Shown in pieces: positions 2,867-16,002 of a DNA stretch of 34,574 nt. The stretch covers positions 1 to 34,574 of the forward strand of contig JACCVZ010000038.1 in assembly GCA_013697905.1 (NCBI GenBank), read 5' to 3'. The DNA comes from Nocardioidaceae bacterium. GTDB taxonomy: Bacteria; Actinomycetota; Actinomycetes; Propionibacteriales; Nocardioidaceae. The position numbers were made by a program, and so were the translations under genes. Below the pieces are notes generated by a model that searched no databases, was not told where the DNA came from, and saw only the letters and a program-made list of their open reading frames with translations. Within the stretch, counting starts at the first letter, position 1, and every line of letters starts with the position of its first letter.

Positions 2867-3367
2867 TCAGGGCAGGTAGCGACGGGCCTCGGCGACGACG
2901 TTTTCGAACAGCGCTTGGTCGACCGCGGCCCCCTCCCGGCGTACGGACGTCGCCTGCACTCGAATCAACCGGTCCAGCCGTACCTCGCTGGGACGCCGCT
3001 CGCGGTCCCAAGCGCCGGTGCCGACATCGCGCCAGTGCCGTCCACGCCGTGACTCCTGCTCGGCGTCACGATCATGATCCTTACTGGTCAGCATCAGCCC
3101 GGCCAGGTCGTCGTCGAGGCGGCCGATGATGAGGACCGGCCGGTCCTTGCCCTGGGCGGGGTCGTCCTCGTACGGGACCCAAGTCCAGACGACCTCACCA
3201 GGATCAGGGCGGCCGTCGAGGCGCGGCCGGTACTCCAGGACGAGGCCGTGGTTGCCCGGGCCGGGTGCAGGCGCGGGTGCAGAACGGGTGCCCGCTCGCA
3301 CCGGTCGACGGCGGGTGAGCGTGGTCAGCAGCCGGTGGAGCGGGCCACCGCGACGCGAACGCGGCAA
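2867..3367 (-). CDS. PemK/MazF-family toxin-like protein (start uncertain: TTG 3367 or GTG 3301)
   Basis: PDPGEVVWTWVPYEDDPAQGKDRPVLIIGR resembles the PemK/MazF N-terminal signature. Confidence 0.7.
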   Translation of the reverse strand: MPRSRRGGPLHRLLTTLTRRRPVRAGTRSAPAPAPGPGNHGLVLEYRPRLDGRPDPGEVVWTWVPYEDDPAQGKDRPVLIIGRLDDDLAGLMLTSKDHDRDAEQESRRGRHWRDVGTGAWDRERRPSEVRLDRLIRVQATSVRREGAAVDQALFENVVAEARRYLP

Positions 3368-3369
3368 GG

Positions 3370-3866
3370 TCAGCAGCCGCAGCTGTAGTAGGTGACGTCC
3401 CAGTGGCTGCCCTTGTTGGTGGAGATGTTGCCCGAGTAGGCCCGGCACATCGGGTAGCCGTCACCGCGCAACCCGATGTAGGAGTAGTGGTTGCGGACGT
3501 AGTCGTCGTTGCAGGTCGAGCGGGAGAGGTCGACCTTGCGGCCGTTGAAGCGGCTGCAGGTGCCGCTGGCGTGCCCGACCTGAGTGCCGCCGGCGATGTT
3601 CACCGCGCAGCCGCTGACCCCCGGTAGGCCTTGATGCCCGATACCGTCGACTGGTTCATCTGGTCGTACGCCATGCACGTGGCGTTGTAGCGGTTGGTGC
3701 AACCACCGCTCGAGGACCGGGTGATGCCGGACGCCCGCAGCTGCGACGCGGCCGACGAGTCGGAGAGCTTGGTGACCGCGGACGCTGTATGGACCGGGTC
3801 GAGGGGGACGGCGGCGAATTAGAGGAGTCCGATCAGCACGGCGATCAGACGATGGGTGCCAGTCAT
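3370..3866 (-). pseudogene. small secreted Cys-containing protein, interrupted by an in-frame stop and a frameshift
   Basis: ATG at 3866 reads MTGTHRLIAVLIGLL-TAA(3821..3819)-FAAVPLDPVHTASAVTKLSDSSAASQLRASGITRSSSGGCTNRYNATCMAYDQMNQSTVSGIKAYRG. A +1 correction at the G5/C5 run 3618..3622 joins it to GVSGCAVNIAGGTQVGHASGTCSRFNGRKVDLSRSTCNDDYVRNHYSYIGLRGDGYPMCRAYSGNISTNKGSHWDVTYYSCGC-stop. Confidence 0.7.
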
Positions 3867-9768: not shown

Positions 9769-10584
9769 ATGAACACTGCGCAGAACACAGCCCACCAGGT
9801 CAACGACAATGCGTGGTTCGAACGGTTGGTGCGCGTGGGCCTGGCGTCGTACGGCATCGTGCACCTGCTCATCGGATGGCTGGCACTCCAGCTAGCGTTC
9901 GGCGACAGCTCGGGAGCACCAGACCAGCAGGGCGCTCTCCAGCAGATCGCCGCCGAACCTTTCGGTGAGGTGTTGCTGTGGATCATCGCCTTCGGGTTGC
10001 TCGCAATGGCCGTCTGGCAGGGGATCGAGGCGTTCGTCGGTCACCGTAGCCGAGACAACCCGAAGCGAACGTTGAAGCGCATCTCCTCTGCGGGCAAGGC
10101 TGTCCTCTACACCGGTCTCGCGGTCTCGTCGGTCAAGACTGCCCTGGAGTCGAAGTCGAAGTCCACCAGCAAGGACTCGATGACCGCGAAGCTGATGGAC
10201 CTGCCCTTGGGGCGCTTCCTCGTGTTCGCTGTCGGTGCGGTGATCATCGGCGTCGGGGTCGCGCTCGTCGTCAAGGGAGTGAAACGGAAGTTCGAGCGCG
10301 ATCTTGATGGTCGAGCAACGTCAGGGTCAACGGGCTCTACGGTGGTGAGGCTCGGCCAGGTCGGCTACACCGCCAAGGGAGTTGCCCTCGGCGTGGTGGG
10401 GGCGCTGTTCGTCTGGGCCGCTTGGACCTACGACGCCAACAAGGCCGGCGGCCTCGACGTTGCCCTGCGCAAACTGCTCGACACCGGATTAGGCCCGTGG
10501 TTGCTGGCCCTGGTCGCCGCCGGGATCGTCTGCTTCGGGGCTTACTGCTTTGCCTGGGCCAGGTACGCCGACACCTCCTCCTAA
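9769..10584 (+). CDS. DUF1206 domain-containing membrane protein
   Basis: Internally repeated TM modules (RVGLASYGIVHLLIGWLALQLAFGD..., GKAVLYTGLAVSSVKTAL, GYTAKGVALGVVGALFVWAA...). Start could be GTG 9766 or ATG 9769. Confidence 0.85.
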   Translation: MNTAQNTAHQVNDNAWFERLVRVGLASYGIVHLLIGWLALQLAFGDSSGAPDQQGALQQIAAEPFGEVLLWIIAFGLLAMAVWQGIEAFVGHRSRDNPKRTLKRISSAGKAVLYTGLAVSSVKTALESKSKSTSKDSMTAKLMDLPLGRFLVFAVGAVIIGVGVALVVKGVKRKFERDLDGRATSGSTGSTVVRLGQVGYTAKGVALGVVGALFVWAAWTYDANKAGGLDVALRKLLDTGLGPWLLALVAAGIVCFGAYCFAWARYADTSS

Positions 10585-10618
10585 CGTCTGCCTCCTAACG
10601 TCTGCCTCCTAACGTCTG
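10577..10618. repeat. 3 x 14-bp perfect tandem repeat CCTCCTAACGTCTG, first copy spanning the DUF1206 stop codon
   Basis: Copies at 10577-10590, 10591-10604 and 10605-10618 are identical. Confidence 0.95.
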
Positions 10619-10792
10619 CGCTGCACCCCGCCGGTGAGAGGTGTGTGGCGGCAGTACAAACGGCAGTACGACAGATGACGGCAGGATGTTTTCGGCGCTG
10701 CGCCTGTCTTCCCGGGCGGTCTGTGACCTATGGTGCTCTCGGTGTCCGCCAACTGGTGGTGTTGACGCCTCGCACCTGATCAAGGGGATCGT

Positions 10793-13700
10793 ATGTCTTT
10801 TGGCCGGCCACGAGGATGCTCGCGTCACCTAGCCCTTACAGCCCTTGCTACCTCTGCAGCCACCGTTGCCGCGATGGGTGCTCTGACCGGGCTACCTGCC
10901 GGCGACGCGTCGGTGGACCTCGGCCGTCAACCCAGTGCGGCGACGGGTAGTGCGGCGACGGGCCAGCCGAGCACTGCTACGGGCCACGCGGGCCCCACGG
11001 CTGACTCGCGTGACACCGTGGGCAACTACGACTCGCGCACGTCCAACGCCAAGGCTGTGACGCGTGCGTCGGCCAAGGTGCTCCGCGACCAGGGCGACGA
11101 CATCCAGGCGCTGGGCGCCAGGTTGGGGCCACACGCGGTCGTCTCGGTCAACCCCTTGACCGGCAGTCCTGACAACGTGGCCAGACTCGACGGGTTCCTC
11201 ACCTCGCCGCGTGCCGCATCCGCCCCCACAGTTGCGCTGGACTACGTCCGCGCGCACCTCGCCGAGTTCGGGCTCGACTCCGACGACCTCGGCACGCTGA
11301 CCACCCCCACGGTGCGCCTCGACCTCAACGGCATCAGCCACGTGTCCTGGCAGCAGAGCGTCGGCGGCGTTCCGGTTTTCGGGAACGGTCTGCGTGCGCA
11401 TGTCACCCGGGACGGCAAGCTCATCTCCGTCCAGGGCGCTCCCATCGCCGATCTGACGGACCTCGCCGCTGCCACCGCAGCCCCTCAGCTCAGCGCGGGC
11501 ACCGCGCGTGCCGCGGCTGCCGACGACGTCTCGGGCTCCGTCGCGAACGCGACGTCGAGCACGACTTCCGGCGCCGAGCGCGCCACCATGTGGAGCAACG
11601 GCGACAGCGCCTCGCTGGTCTACTTCCTCACGCCGGGTGGTCTTCGCAGCGGCTGGTCGACGTACGTGCAGCCCGGCCCGAAGCAGGCATTCCAGCAGGT
11701 GATCGACGCCAAGAACGGGTCGACCCTCTATCGGCACAGCACGATCCAGAAGGACCGTGGCGACGGACTGGCATTCGACCAGTACCCGGGTGCTCCGAGG
11801 GGCGGCAACCAGCGCACGGTCAACATCTACGAACGGAACTACCTGTCAAGGAACGCCACCTGGCTGAACGGCAGGTACGTCCGCGCCTGGGCCGACGTCA
11901 ACGACGACAACACGGTGCAGAACAAGGAGAAGACAGGAATCCCCGGCACGAAGTCGCGGGCGCAGTTCCTGCTCAAGAGGTTCAAGCTCGACTCGGTGCT
12001 GTGCTCCAAGGCATACCCGTGCACCTGGGCTCCGAACCGGGCGTACTCCTGGCGTGCGAACAAGAACCAGGACGGCACGCAGGGCTTCATCTTGGCCAGC
12101 CGGTTCCACGACTACCTGGAGAACGCCCCGATCGGCTTCACGGCTGGGATGGGCAACTTCGAGGCCAAGGGTGGCGACGCCTTGCGACTGAACGTGCTCG
12201 ACGGCGCCAACACCACCGGCGACGGTTTCCCGGACGGTAACCACATCGACAACGCGAACATGAACACACCGCCCGACGGTGGGGCGCCGACTATGCAGAT
12301 GTACCTCAACCACGTCCCGCACACCACCGCCCAGGAGGACCCCTACCTGCCGGCGAGTTCCTCGGACGCAGCCGACAACATCTACCACGAGTACACCCAC
12401 GGGTTGTCGAACCGCCTCGTGGTGGACTCCGGCGGCAACTCGACCCTGAACAGTCTGCACGCCGGCGCCATGGGCGAAGCGTGGTCGGACTACTACGCGA
12501 TGGACTACCTGGTCTACAAGCGGCTGATGAAGGACACCGACAGGGGCGGTGAGGTGCTCTTCGACCGCTACCTGACCAACAACCGGCCGATCACGCGATC
12601 GGAGTCGATCGACTGCTTCGTCAAGGCCACGTCCCGCTTCTGCCAGAAGGCCATTGGTCCGCGCGGTGGCTACACGTTCGGTGATCTCGGCAACGCCACG
12701 GGCGGGCCCGAGGTGCACGCCGACGGCGAGATCTGGGCGCAGACTCTTTGGGACCTGCGCCGGGCACTCGGTCACACGGTCACCAACGCGATCGTGACTG
12801 AAGCGATGAGCATCTCGCCGGCCGACCCATCGTTCCTCGACGAGCGCGACGCTATCGTGCTCGCCGATCGCGCCATCTACAACGGGGCTCACCGGGCGGA
12901 CATCTGGTCGGTCTTCGCCGGCCGCGGCATGGGCTGGTTCGCCTCCGCCACCGACGGCAGCGACGCCAGCGTGATCGAGAACTTCCAGGTGCCGCCCCGT
13001 CCCGGTACCCCGAGGTACGCGGTCACCGGCACCGTGACCGACGACGCTACAGGTGCGCCGATCGAGGGCGCTGTCATCACCATCCCCGGCCACTCGTCGT
13101 CGATCAGCAACTACTCTGCGGTCACCGGGCCGAAGGGCCACTACCGGATCAGGCACGTGCTCGCGGGTCGGTACCCCGAGATCGTTGCCCGGGCGCCCGG
13201 GTACGACATCGCCACTGAGGTGGCCGATGTGAGGGCTGGCCGGGCGCAGGTCGACTTCGAACTGCGGCGCGATTGGGCGGCCACGGCCGGAGGCGCCACC
13301 CTCGACGACTTCACAGGTCCGAACTACGGTCCTGGCTGTGGTCCGGCAGATGCGCTTGACCTCAACTACGGAGAAGGCTGGTCGACGAACCGCGGCGACG
13401 GGAACCCCACGGACACGCCGGAGCCGAAGTATCTGGTGGTCAAGCTTCCCCAGCCCATCACGGTGTCGGCCTTCGGTGTCGACCCGAGCAACACCTGTGG
13501 TGACGCTGGCAGCGCCTCGACCGGCCCCTACCGCATCGAGGTGTCCAGCAACGGCGACACCTTCACGCAGGTCGCGCAGGGAACGTTCACCCCGGCGGAC
13601 CGCGGTCGGGTGAACGAGATCTCGCCCGATGCGCCGCTCCCCGGCGTCGAGTACGTCAAGTTCTGGATCGACGACTCCCAGGTCGAGCAGCTCCGCCAGC

Positions 13701-15493
13701 CGGACGAGGTCTGCTCGGAAGGTGCGCCGTATGCAGGTTGCCAGTACATGGACCTGACGGAGCTTGAGGTGTACGGCAGCGCATCTGGTACACCGCCAGC
13801 AGCACGGGACATTCAGATCCTGTCGTTCAACGACTATCACGGCCACCTGGAGGCCAACGATCCTCCTCAGTCCCCGCTGCCGTCGACCACTCCACCGGTG
13901 GGAGGTGTCGAGTACCTTGCCTCTCACGTGAAAGCGCTCCGAGCCGAGCAGCCTCGCTCCACGCTCACGGTCGCTGCCGGTGACCTCATTGGCGGGTCGA
14001 CGTTCCTGTCCGGCTTGTTCCAGGACCAACCCTCGGTCGAGTCGATGAACGCGCTCGGCCTCGACGTCTCCAGCGTCGGGAACCACGAGTTCGACGAGGG
14101 CCTGAAAGAGTTGAAGCGGATGGTTCAGGGTGGCTGTCAGCCGGCGCCGAAGGGGTGCTTCACGGACGCCAACGGGGACGACATCCCGTACGCCGGGACG
14201 GACTTCCCGTACCTCGGTGCGAACGTGGTGAAGAAGTCGACGGGCGCCAACCTGCCGTGGCTCCCAGGTACGACGGTGAGGACGATCCGCGGCATCAAGA
14301 TCGGCTTCATCGGGATGACTCTCGAGGCAACCGACACGTTGGTCAACCCCGCCGGTGTCAGCGCGGTTGACTTCGAGGACGAGGTCGGCACCGCCAACGC
14401 AAAGGTGGCCGGTCTCAAGGCTCAGGGTGTCGAGACGATCGTCGTGCTGCTGCACGAGGGTGGGTACCAGGTGTCCCCACAGACGATCAACACCTGCAAC
14501 GGCATCTCCGACCCGATCAAGACGATCGCGCAGAACCTGGACCCGGAGATCGACGACGTCATCACCGGCCACACCCACCAGCCGTACGTGTGCACGATCG
14601 ACGACCCCGACGGCAACCCGAGGCTGGTCACCAGTGCGGCGTCATACGGCCAGGTGCTGACCGAGACGCACCTCAAGGTCGATCCGGCTACCGGTGAGGT
14701 GATCCGCAACCTGTCCACGGCCACCAACAACTTGGTGACGCGTGACGTGGTCAAGGACGCCGGTGAGACGTCGATAGTCGACTTCTGGAAGCCGTTGTCG
14801 GATGCGCTCGGCAACACCGTGGTCGGGGAGGTCACCGAGGACATCACCGGCGACTCCGGCACCTGCCGGTGCGAGGAGACCCCGATGGTGGATCTGGTTG
14901 CCGACGCGATCCTGTTCGGCACCGAGGCGCCGGAAGACGGTGGGGCACAGTTGGCGCTGATGAACACGGGCGGCGTGCGGGCCAGCCTGCTGGTCGCGCC
15001 CGCTGCAGGTGCTCCAGAGGGACCTGGGGAGGTCACCTACCGGGAGGCATACAACGTCGCCCCGTTCAACAACATCTTGGTGACGCTCGACATGACTGGA
15101 CAGCAGATCCAGGATGTGTTGAACCAGCAGTATCAGCCGATCACGGCTCGGGGTTCGCGCCCGATGCTGTCACTCGGAGTGTCTGACGGCTTCAGCTACG
15201 AGTGGACATGGGACGGACCCGCTCCGCCGCCCAACACTCAGCCGGGGCCTGGTGCGAACGGGCACGTCGTGCCTGGAAGCATGACGCTCAACGGTGTGGC
15301 CATCGACGTCAGCCAGACATACCGGGTCGCCACGCTGAACTTCCTCGCTGACGGTGGGGACTCGTTCACGGCCTTCACCGCGGGCACCAACCGGCTTGGA
15401 GGTCCTGAGGACCTGGCGAACCTGGTGGCGTACCTCGACGCCAACACCCCGCCCGGTCTGACGGCTCCGCCGTCGCGGATCATCGGTCTCTGA
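10793..15493 (+). CDS. secreted multidomain protein: M36 (fungalysin) metallopeptidase + carboxypeptidase-regulatory-like and discoidin-like domains + metallophosphatase/5'-nucleotidase
   Basis: Signal-like N-terminus; HEYTH with downstream GAMGEAWSDYYAMDY (M36); Ig-like YAVTGTVTDDATGAPIEGAVITIPG; ILSFNDYHGHLEAN, GDLIGGS, GNHEFDEG, GHTHQPY (metallophosphatase); NVAPFNNILVTLDMTGQQIQDVLNQQY (5'-nucleotidase C-terminal domain). Confidence 0.92.
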   Translation: MSFGRPRGCSRHLALTALATSAATVAAMGALTGLPAGDASVDLGRQPSAATGSAATGQPSTATGHAGPTADSRDTVGNYDSRTSNAKAVTRASAKVLRDQGDDIQALGARLGPHAVVSVNPLTGSPDNVARLDGFLTSPRAASAPTVALDYVRAHLAEFGLDSDDLGTLTTPTVRLDLNGISHVSWQQSVGGVPVFGNGLRAHVTRDGKLISVQGAPIADLTDLAAATAAPQLSAGTARAAAADDVSGSVANATSSTTSGAERATMWSNGDSASLVYFLTPGGLRSGWSTYVQPGPKQAFQQVIDAKNGSTLYRHSTIQKDRGDGLAFDQYPGAPRGGNQRTVNIYERNYLSRNATWLNGRYVRAWADVNDDNTVQNKEKTGIPGTKSRAQFLLKRFKLDSVLCSKAYPCTWAPNRAYSWRANKNQDGTQGFILASRFHDYLENAPIGFTAGMGNFEAKGGDALRLNVLDGANTTGDGFPDGNHIDNANMNTPPDGGAPTMQMYLNHVPHTTAQEDPYLPASSSDAADNIYHEYTHGLSNRLVVDSGGNSTLNSLHAGAMGEAWSDYYAMDYLVYKRLMKDTDRGGEVLFDRYLTNNRPITRSESIDCFVKATSRFCQKAIGPRGGYTFGDLGNATGGPEVHADGEIWAQTLWDLRRALGHTVTNAIVTEAMSISPADPSFLDERDAIVLADRAIYNGAHRADIWSVFAGRGMGWFASATDGSDASVIENFQVPPRPGTPRYAVTGTVTDDATGAPIEGAVITIPGHSSSISNYSAVTGPKGHYRIRHVLAGRYPEIVARAPGYDIATEVADVRAGRAQVDFELRRDWAATAGGATLDDFTGPNYGPGCGPADALDLNYGEGWSTNRGDGNPTDTPEPKYLVVKLPQPITVSAFGVDPSNTCGDAGSASTGPYRIEVSSNGDTFTQVAQGTFTPADRGRVNEISPDAPLPGVEYVKFWIDDSQVEQLRQPDEVCSEGAPYAGCQYMDLTELEVYGSASGTPPAARDIQILSFNDYHGHLEANDPPQSPLPSTTPPVGGVEYLASHVKALRAEQPRSTLTVAAGDLIGGSTFLSGLFQDQPSVESMNALGLDVSSVGNHEFDEGLKELKRMVQGGCQPAPKGCFTDANGDDIPYAGTDFPYLGANVVKKSTGANLPWLPGTTVRTIRGIKIGFIGMTLEATDTLVNPAGVSAVDFEDEVGTANAKVAGLKAQGVETIVVLLHEGGYQVSPQTINTCNGISDPIKTIAQNLDPEIDDVITGHTHQPYVCTIDDPDGNPRLVTSAASYGQVLTETHLKVDPATGEVIRNLSTATNNLVTRDVVKDAGETSIVDFWKPLSDALGNTVVGEVTEDITGDSGTCRCEETPMVDLVADAILFGTEAPEDGGAQLALMNTGGVRASLLVAPAAGAPEGPGEVTYREAYNVAPFNNILVTLDMTGQQIQDVLNQQYQPITARGSRPMLSLGVSDGFSYEWTWDGPAPPPNTQPGPGANGHVVPGSMTLNGVAIDVSQTYRVATLNFLADGGDSFTAFTAGTNRLGGPEDLANLVAYLDANTPPGLTAPPSRIIGL

Positions 15494-15525
15494 GCGGCGA
15501 GGAGCGCAGTCAGCAAGACGACGCG

Positions 15526-15559
15526 AAGCGCCCCACCCCCCCGGGGAGGCGGGGCGCTT
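15526..15559 (+). terminator. GC-rich hairpin downstream of the M36/5'-nucleotidase gene
   Basis: AAGCGCCCC...GGGGCGCTT inverted repeat 33 nt after the stop codon. Confidence 0.7.
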
Positions 15560-15660
15560 GGTTGGGTCTCGTCACCCAGCTGGCCGAGCGCTGGGCGTCA
15601 GCAGACGGTGATGCCGGGGAGCAAACCCACCAGGACACCTGAGGGGTTGATATACGGAGG

Positions 15661-15843
15661 TCAGGGGCCGGCGGGCACCCGGGCGATCGCTTCGCTGTAC
15701 GTGGGGCCGCTCAGCTCCAACAGGTCGACCACGAGCGAACGCATCTGGCCGAGTACTACGGCCGCCGACAACGTGAGCGGCTCCAGCTCGTCGAGCAGCT
15801 CCAGATAGTCAGGGGGCATCGTCTCGTCGAGTCGGGCGCTCAC
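15661..15843 (-). CDS. small hypothetical protein
   Basis: 60-aa ORF with GTG start, MSARLDETMPPDYLELLDELEPLTLSAAVVLGQMRSLVVDLLELSG...; ordinary composition, no family recognised. Confidence 0.45.
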   Translation of the reverse strand: MSARLDETMPPDYLELLDELEPLTLSAAVVLGQMRSLVVDLLELSGPTYSEAIARVPAGP

Positions 15844-16002
15844 GACGAGCGGCGGATCAGCACGCGGGTGTTGCCAAGCGCCCTGTCGAGAGGGCCAGCG
15901 ACCTCAGCGATCGAGCGCACCAGGGGCCGAACCGGGTGGGTCGCTCGTGTCGGCCACCCACCCGGCGCACGCACCACCCGTCTCACCTGGCAGGCTGGGG
16001 AC

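Follow-up and report, generated by a model that had tools for sequence, protein, structure and literature searches.

Introduction

The enzymes that most closely resemble the protein described here are well known individually. Stand-alone actinobacterial M36 (fungalysin) peptidases, found for example in Kribbella and Nocardioides, end at a discoidin-like domain, and in none of those compared does a nucleotidase follow. Stand-alone secreted bifunctional metallophosphatase/5'-nucleotidases of Actinomycetota carry their own signal peptide, lack a peptidase and end without an anchor. The same nucleotidase fold, with its metal-site and substrate-site motifs, is found in UshA, CD73 and the Thermus 5'-nucleotidase (PDB 1ush, 4h2i and 2z1a) and in PDB entry 3ivd, all of which are single-enzyme proteins. 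A further group comprises multi-domain, probably secreted proteins in which a C-terminal 5'-nucleotidase is preceded by a phytase-like domain (two loci, Streptomyces among them), an Exo_endo_phos domain or CHRD/fasciclin domains, so that the N-terminal partner is a phosphate-releasing enzyme, a nuclease or a binding domain. Here we describe an open reading frame (ORF) of a Nocardioidaceae bacterium in which the partner is instead a peptidase. It lies in a window of 34,574 nucleotides (contig JACCVZ010000038.1, assembly GCA_013697905.1), and all positions below refer to this whole stretch.

Results and Discussion

The fusion ORF occupies positions 10,793–15,493 (+) and encodes an M36 metallopeptidase followed by a 5'-nucleotidase. 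The initial annotation had described an uninterrupted frame of 1566 amino acids, which was borne out: it runs from an ATG, preceded by a good ribosome-binding site (AAGGGG), to a TGA stop without any internal stop codon. The N terminus resembles a signal peptide (residues ~1–39; 10,793–10,909), as judged by reading the sequence, with a basic n-region (RPRGCSRH), a hydrophobic core and then GLPAGDA. Pfam assignments place an FTP propeptide motif at residues 177–216 (11,321–11,440; PF07504, 5e-12), the Peptidase_M36 catalytic domain at 421–715 (12,053–12,937; 2.5e-43), a CarboxypepD_reg beta-sandwich domain at 744–824 (13,022–13,264; 2e-13) and a discoidin-like F5/8 type C domain at 13,334–13,777, for which the F5_F8_type_C match covers residues 848–961 (2.6e-7) and the last predicted strand ends at ~997. 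A linker, SASGTPPAA (residues 996–1004; 13,778–13,804), leads into the Metallophos domain (1009–1264; 13,817–14,584; 3.7e-4) and the 5_nucleotid_C domain (1343–1529; 14,819–15,379; 2e-31). All domains named in the initial annotation were recovered, although its list had missed the CarboxypepD_reg and discoidin-like domains. Stand-alone M36 relatives align across both domains as far as their own C termini, which places the two in the M36 half.

GC3 values are 0.859 and 0.843 in the two halves, and the flanking MFS, HrpA and LigD genes are alike in this respect. A G+C-rich hairpin lies just 3' of the stop codon (15,526–15,559, +; arms AAGCGCCCC and GGGGCGCTT), which is a possible terminator and is not among the hits of a T-tail terminator scan. 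On the opposite strand, a GTG-initiated ORF of 910 residues (11,846–14,578, −) overlaps the fusion ORF; it is rich in Arg, Val and Asp and resembles the antisense shadow frames of high-GC sequence.

The M36 half meets expectations for this family. Its Peptidase_M36 score of 149.1 bits (cut-off 23.3) identifies it as an M36 (fungalysin, MEROPS) domain, and the FTP prodomain is in place. The HExxH zinc motif is present as HEYTH (residues 532–536; 12,386–12,400) and the downstream glutamate lies within GEAWSD (561–566; 12,473–12,490), so the catalytic motifs that had been reported as intact are indeed so; both histidines and both glutamates are invariant columns of the M36 alignment. The half keeps 106 of the 110 columns at which all other rows agree, and the four departures (H556 for Q, F629 for Y, I762 for V and N844 for D) fall outside HEYTH and GEAWSD and within the range of the relatives. 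AlphaFold modelled this part with medium confidence (mean pLDDT 73.7, alignment of 23 rows), and the PDB entries that represent relatives of the catalytic domain are titled extracellular metalloproteinase. No close homologue was found (54% identity at best), and in the tree a rather long branch (0.76) leads to this half, whose position is unsure owing to long branches.

The nucleotidase half is also complete. Its C-terminal domain, which had been proposed from the sequence, matches 5_nucleotid_C over nearly its full length (109.6 bits, cut-off 23.6), whereas the Metallophos match falls just below its cut-off (21.4 against 21.5 bits) while family alignments and a fold search are clear. Every motif expected from the first reading could be located, namely FNDYHG (starting at 1012), AGDLIGG (1062), GNHEFDEG (1096) and GHTH (1259), together with LLHEGG (1219), NTGGVRA (1391) and, in the C-terminal domain, NFLADGGDSF. 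These supply all metal-site motifs of the family (DxH, GD, GNHE/D, H and GHxH) through D1014/H1016, D1064, N1097/H1098, H1221 and H1260/H1262. None of the 79 columns invariant in all other rows departs, and retention at this level in both halves indicates that neither is decaying. The AlphaFold model has pLDDT >90 for most of its length and the predicted fold is complete; its top 50 PDB structural matches all belong to 5'-nucleotidases or to the related NadN, with 3ivd best (E 1.8e-39, target TM 0.84) and 2z1a, CD73 and UshA also among the leading ones. Identity to UshA, CD73, the Thermus enzyme and 3ivd is ~21–24% in the structural alignments. A single stand-alone nucleotidase from the same family (69% identical) is the fully supported partner of the nucleotidase half in the tree and has the same catalytic and C-terminal domains and C terminus; the clade neighbours are nucleotidases of Intrasporangiaceae (~60%) and relatives.

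The junction could be defined from both sides. In 13 relatives that consist of the M36 part only (44–54% identical, with the catalytic motifs and C-terminal region of the fusion), the last residues (TELEVFG-like) match residues ~996–1000 of the query, and in ~85 nucleotidase relatives (up to 69% identical) the core starts at ~1002–1007, in most cases after their own signal peptide. Since the M36 relatives stop where the nucleotidase relatives start, the join is in frame and at domain borders. The two parts of the chain were folded separately, and a mixed whole-chain alignment was dropped because it forced M36-only rows onto the nucleotidase half. In the resulting models, the discoidin-like domain has its final strand at ~990–997 and the first nucleotidase strand begins at ~1005, which leaves a linker of ~9 residues and agrees with the earlier estimate of a junction near 13,800. 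Neither an inner stop codon nor an internal nucleotidase signal peptide is present. Stop loss between adjacent genes was rejected as the origin: loss of a stop codon alone cannot explain the join because the nucleotidase signal peptide is gone, and no adjacent pair occurs in the flanks of relatives that were examined. The relatives do encode the enzymes as two genes, as the initial annotation had supposed for these usually separate extracellular proteins, but the genes are non-adjacent rather than divided by a stop codon or indel, and the nucleotidases have their own signal peptides. An internal start that would yield a separate nucleotidase is unlikely, as its product would have no signal peptide and a spacer is absent. 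The analysis thus confirms, at the level of sequence, an in-frame fusion of two otherwise separate secreted enzymes, both apparently intact.

No match spanning both halves was found at the level of family (150 genomes), order (347) or phylum (297), and an M36 profile search of 247 genomes at class level gave no other M36 open frame longer than 1365 residues; in total 1071 genomes were searched for the fusion, some more than once. Likewise, none of the best 80 loci from a scan of genomes from ~85,000 species spans both halves, a scan that relied on exact peptide seeds and could miss distant cases. A tblastn search of plasmids returned matches to the nucleotidase half only, and viral contigs gave no match. 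We found no paper in the open-licence literature that describes an M36–5'-nucleotidase fusion, so that neither the databases nor this literature suggest an already common and characterized architecture. Three genomes of the same genus (G027, G001 and G042; 77–88% complete) contain no close copy of either half. The genome that carries the fusion (~94% complete) has no PF02872 match and no strong M36 match other than the fusion gene, and the sole further match to the fusion ORF in it is a weak one of 73 residues.

Comparison with the same-genus genomes shows that the gene lies on a ~5 kb insertion (approximate edges 10,585–15,663) placed between the DUF1206 and aldo/keto reductase genes of the window and absent at this site in G027, G001 and G042. 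The G027 flanks are 81–90% identical in DNA to the window, and the order there is the DUF1206 gene, a gene on the minus strand that we take to be FUSC-like from reading its sequence rather than from a database match, and the aldo/keto reductase gene; in G001 the DUF1206 gene directly adjoins the reductase gene. The FUSC-like gene encodes an intact protein of 365 residues in G027 and is retained in the window as a frameshifted and shortened remnant (15,664–15,929, −); G042 and G009 also keep matches to this region. The most plausible reading of this comparison is therefore that the fusion gene was gained in this lineage alone and that the DNA on either outer side of the insert is native.

Where the insertion begins on the left, the DUF1206 stop codon is overlapped by a perfect tandem repeat (10,577–10,619) made up of three copies of the 14-bp unit CCTCCTAACGTCTG; this repeat is missing from the matching place in G027. 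Farther upstream, a Na+/H+ antiporter (CPA1) gene with a C-terminal UBP-type zinc finger (901–2856, +) has a counterpart in G027 that is 91% identical. In the next ORF (2867–3448, −), a PemK/MazF-like domain is confined to the C-terminal ~105 residues; its true start is probably internal, since the matches in G027 and G009 also start at residue 69.

The fusion is seen on one contig, and no second genome with the join was found among those searched. We consider it probable that the gene is a genuine fusion, known so far from a single species, of a complete secreted M36 peptidase with a complete 5'-nucleotidase, and that its product is most likely exported through Sec and released as a two-headed exoenzyme. 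An assembly chimera, in which a stretch ending in an M36 gene was misjoined to one starting inside a 5'-nucleotidase gene, would account for the singularity of the join, and the assembly is fragmented (394 contigs, estimated contamination 3.35%). Such a misjoin would, however, have had to fall in frame and keep the conserved columns of both proteins while losing nothing but the stop of the M36 gene and the signal peptide of the nucleotidase, which a random break would do in fewer than 1 in 1000 cases by a rough estimate. The junction has no conspicuous repeat of a kind that could cause misassembly, GC and GC3 are unchanged across it, and on either side the sequence outside the insert is native to the genus; we therefore regard a chimera as quite improbable. 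A recent, fortuitous fusion, with one activity under selection and the other merely carried along, would fit an insertion found in a single species and missing from sister genomes. Against this, essentially all invariant residues are kept in both halves, although a very recent event would look alike, and the genome has no second copy of either enzyme. This explanation is improbable too, if somewhat less so than a misassembly.

Taking the gene as a genuine fusion that encodes a released two-headed enzyme, we propose that the whole chain would be exported once, most likely through Sec, and that the FTP prodomain would then be removed as in other M36 enzymes. In the medium, the M36 head would cut extracellular protein into peptides and the nucleotidase head would strip phosphate from the nucleotides of lysed cells, with the discoidin-like and CarboxypepD_reg domains between them probably serving as a spacer and/or as a binder of surfaces or polymers. 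Release is in keeping with a C terminus (PSRIIGL) that carries neither the LPXTG-type anchor whose absence had already been remarked upon nor any other sorting signal; the closest stand-alone relatives of each half end at the same places and also lack an anchor. NCBIfam models for sortase-, T9SS- or rhombosortase-dependent M36 enzymes or LPXTG-anchored 5'-nucleotidases score far below their cut-offs (NF038113, 131.5 against 885; NF047875, 177.1 against 1050). The product is most likely a released exoenzyme that scavenges nitrogen, carbon and phosphorus, which fits the coupled nutrient-scavenging exoenzyme suggested in the initial annotation. Alternatively, the exported chain could be a polyprotein that its own M36 domain or another protease would cleave close to the linker, giving a free peptidase and a free nucleotidase. 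M36 enzymes process their own prodomain, the linker is composed of Ala, Pro, Ser, Gly and Thr, and the model is of low confidence in the tail that follows the final discoidin strand (pLDDT <50 at model residues 676–679). This linker is nevertheless predicted to measure just ~9 residues between two folded domains, and related multi-domain nucleotidases share the tethered layout. Nothing found favours self-cleavage into two enzymes, and we judge the polyprotein reading unlikely overall. A more specific and still speculative idea, to which we give somewhat more credence, is that the intact chain would physically couple proteolysis to dephosphorylation, for instance on nucleoprotein or cell debris at one spot, with the discoidin-like domain directing it to a surface or polymer, and that one lineage gained this tethered exoenzyme ready-made in place of separate secreted enzymes.

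Conclusion

The protein combines two well-known enzymes in a clean and new way; it is not a new kind of system and changes no known mechanism. Fusions of this nucleotidase subfamily to phytase-like, endonuclease and CHRD/fasciclin domains occur in other proteins, so that the present pairing is new but its modular theme is already known, and the M36 domain appears to be the first peptidase partner of this subfamily that we could find among the systems searched. If the fusion is real and bifunctional, protein and nucleotide scavenging can share one secreted chain, and a peptidase would join the enzymes fused to this actinobacterial nucleotidase module. The fusion would then also offer a compact natural construct with which to test whether tethered exoenzymes gain an advantage.
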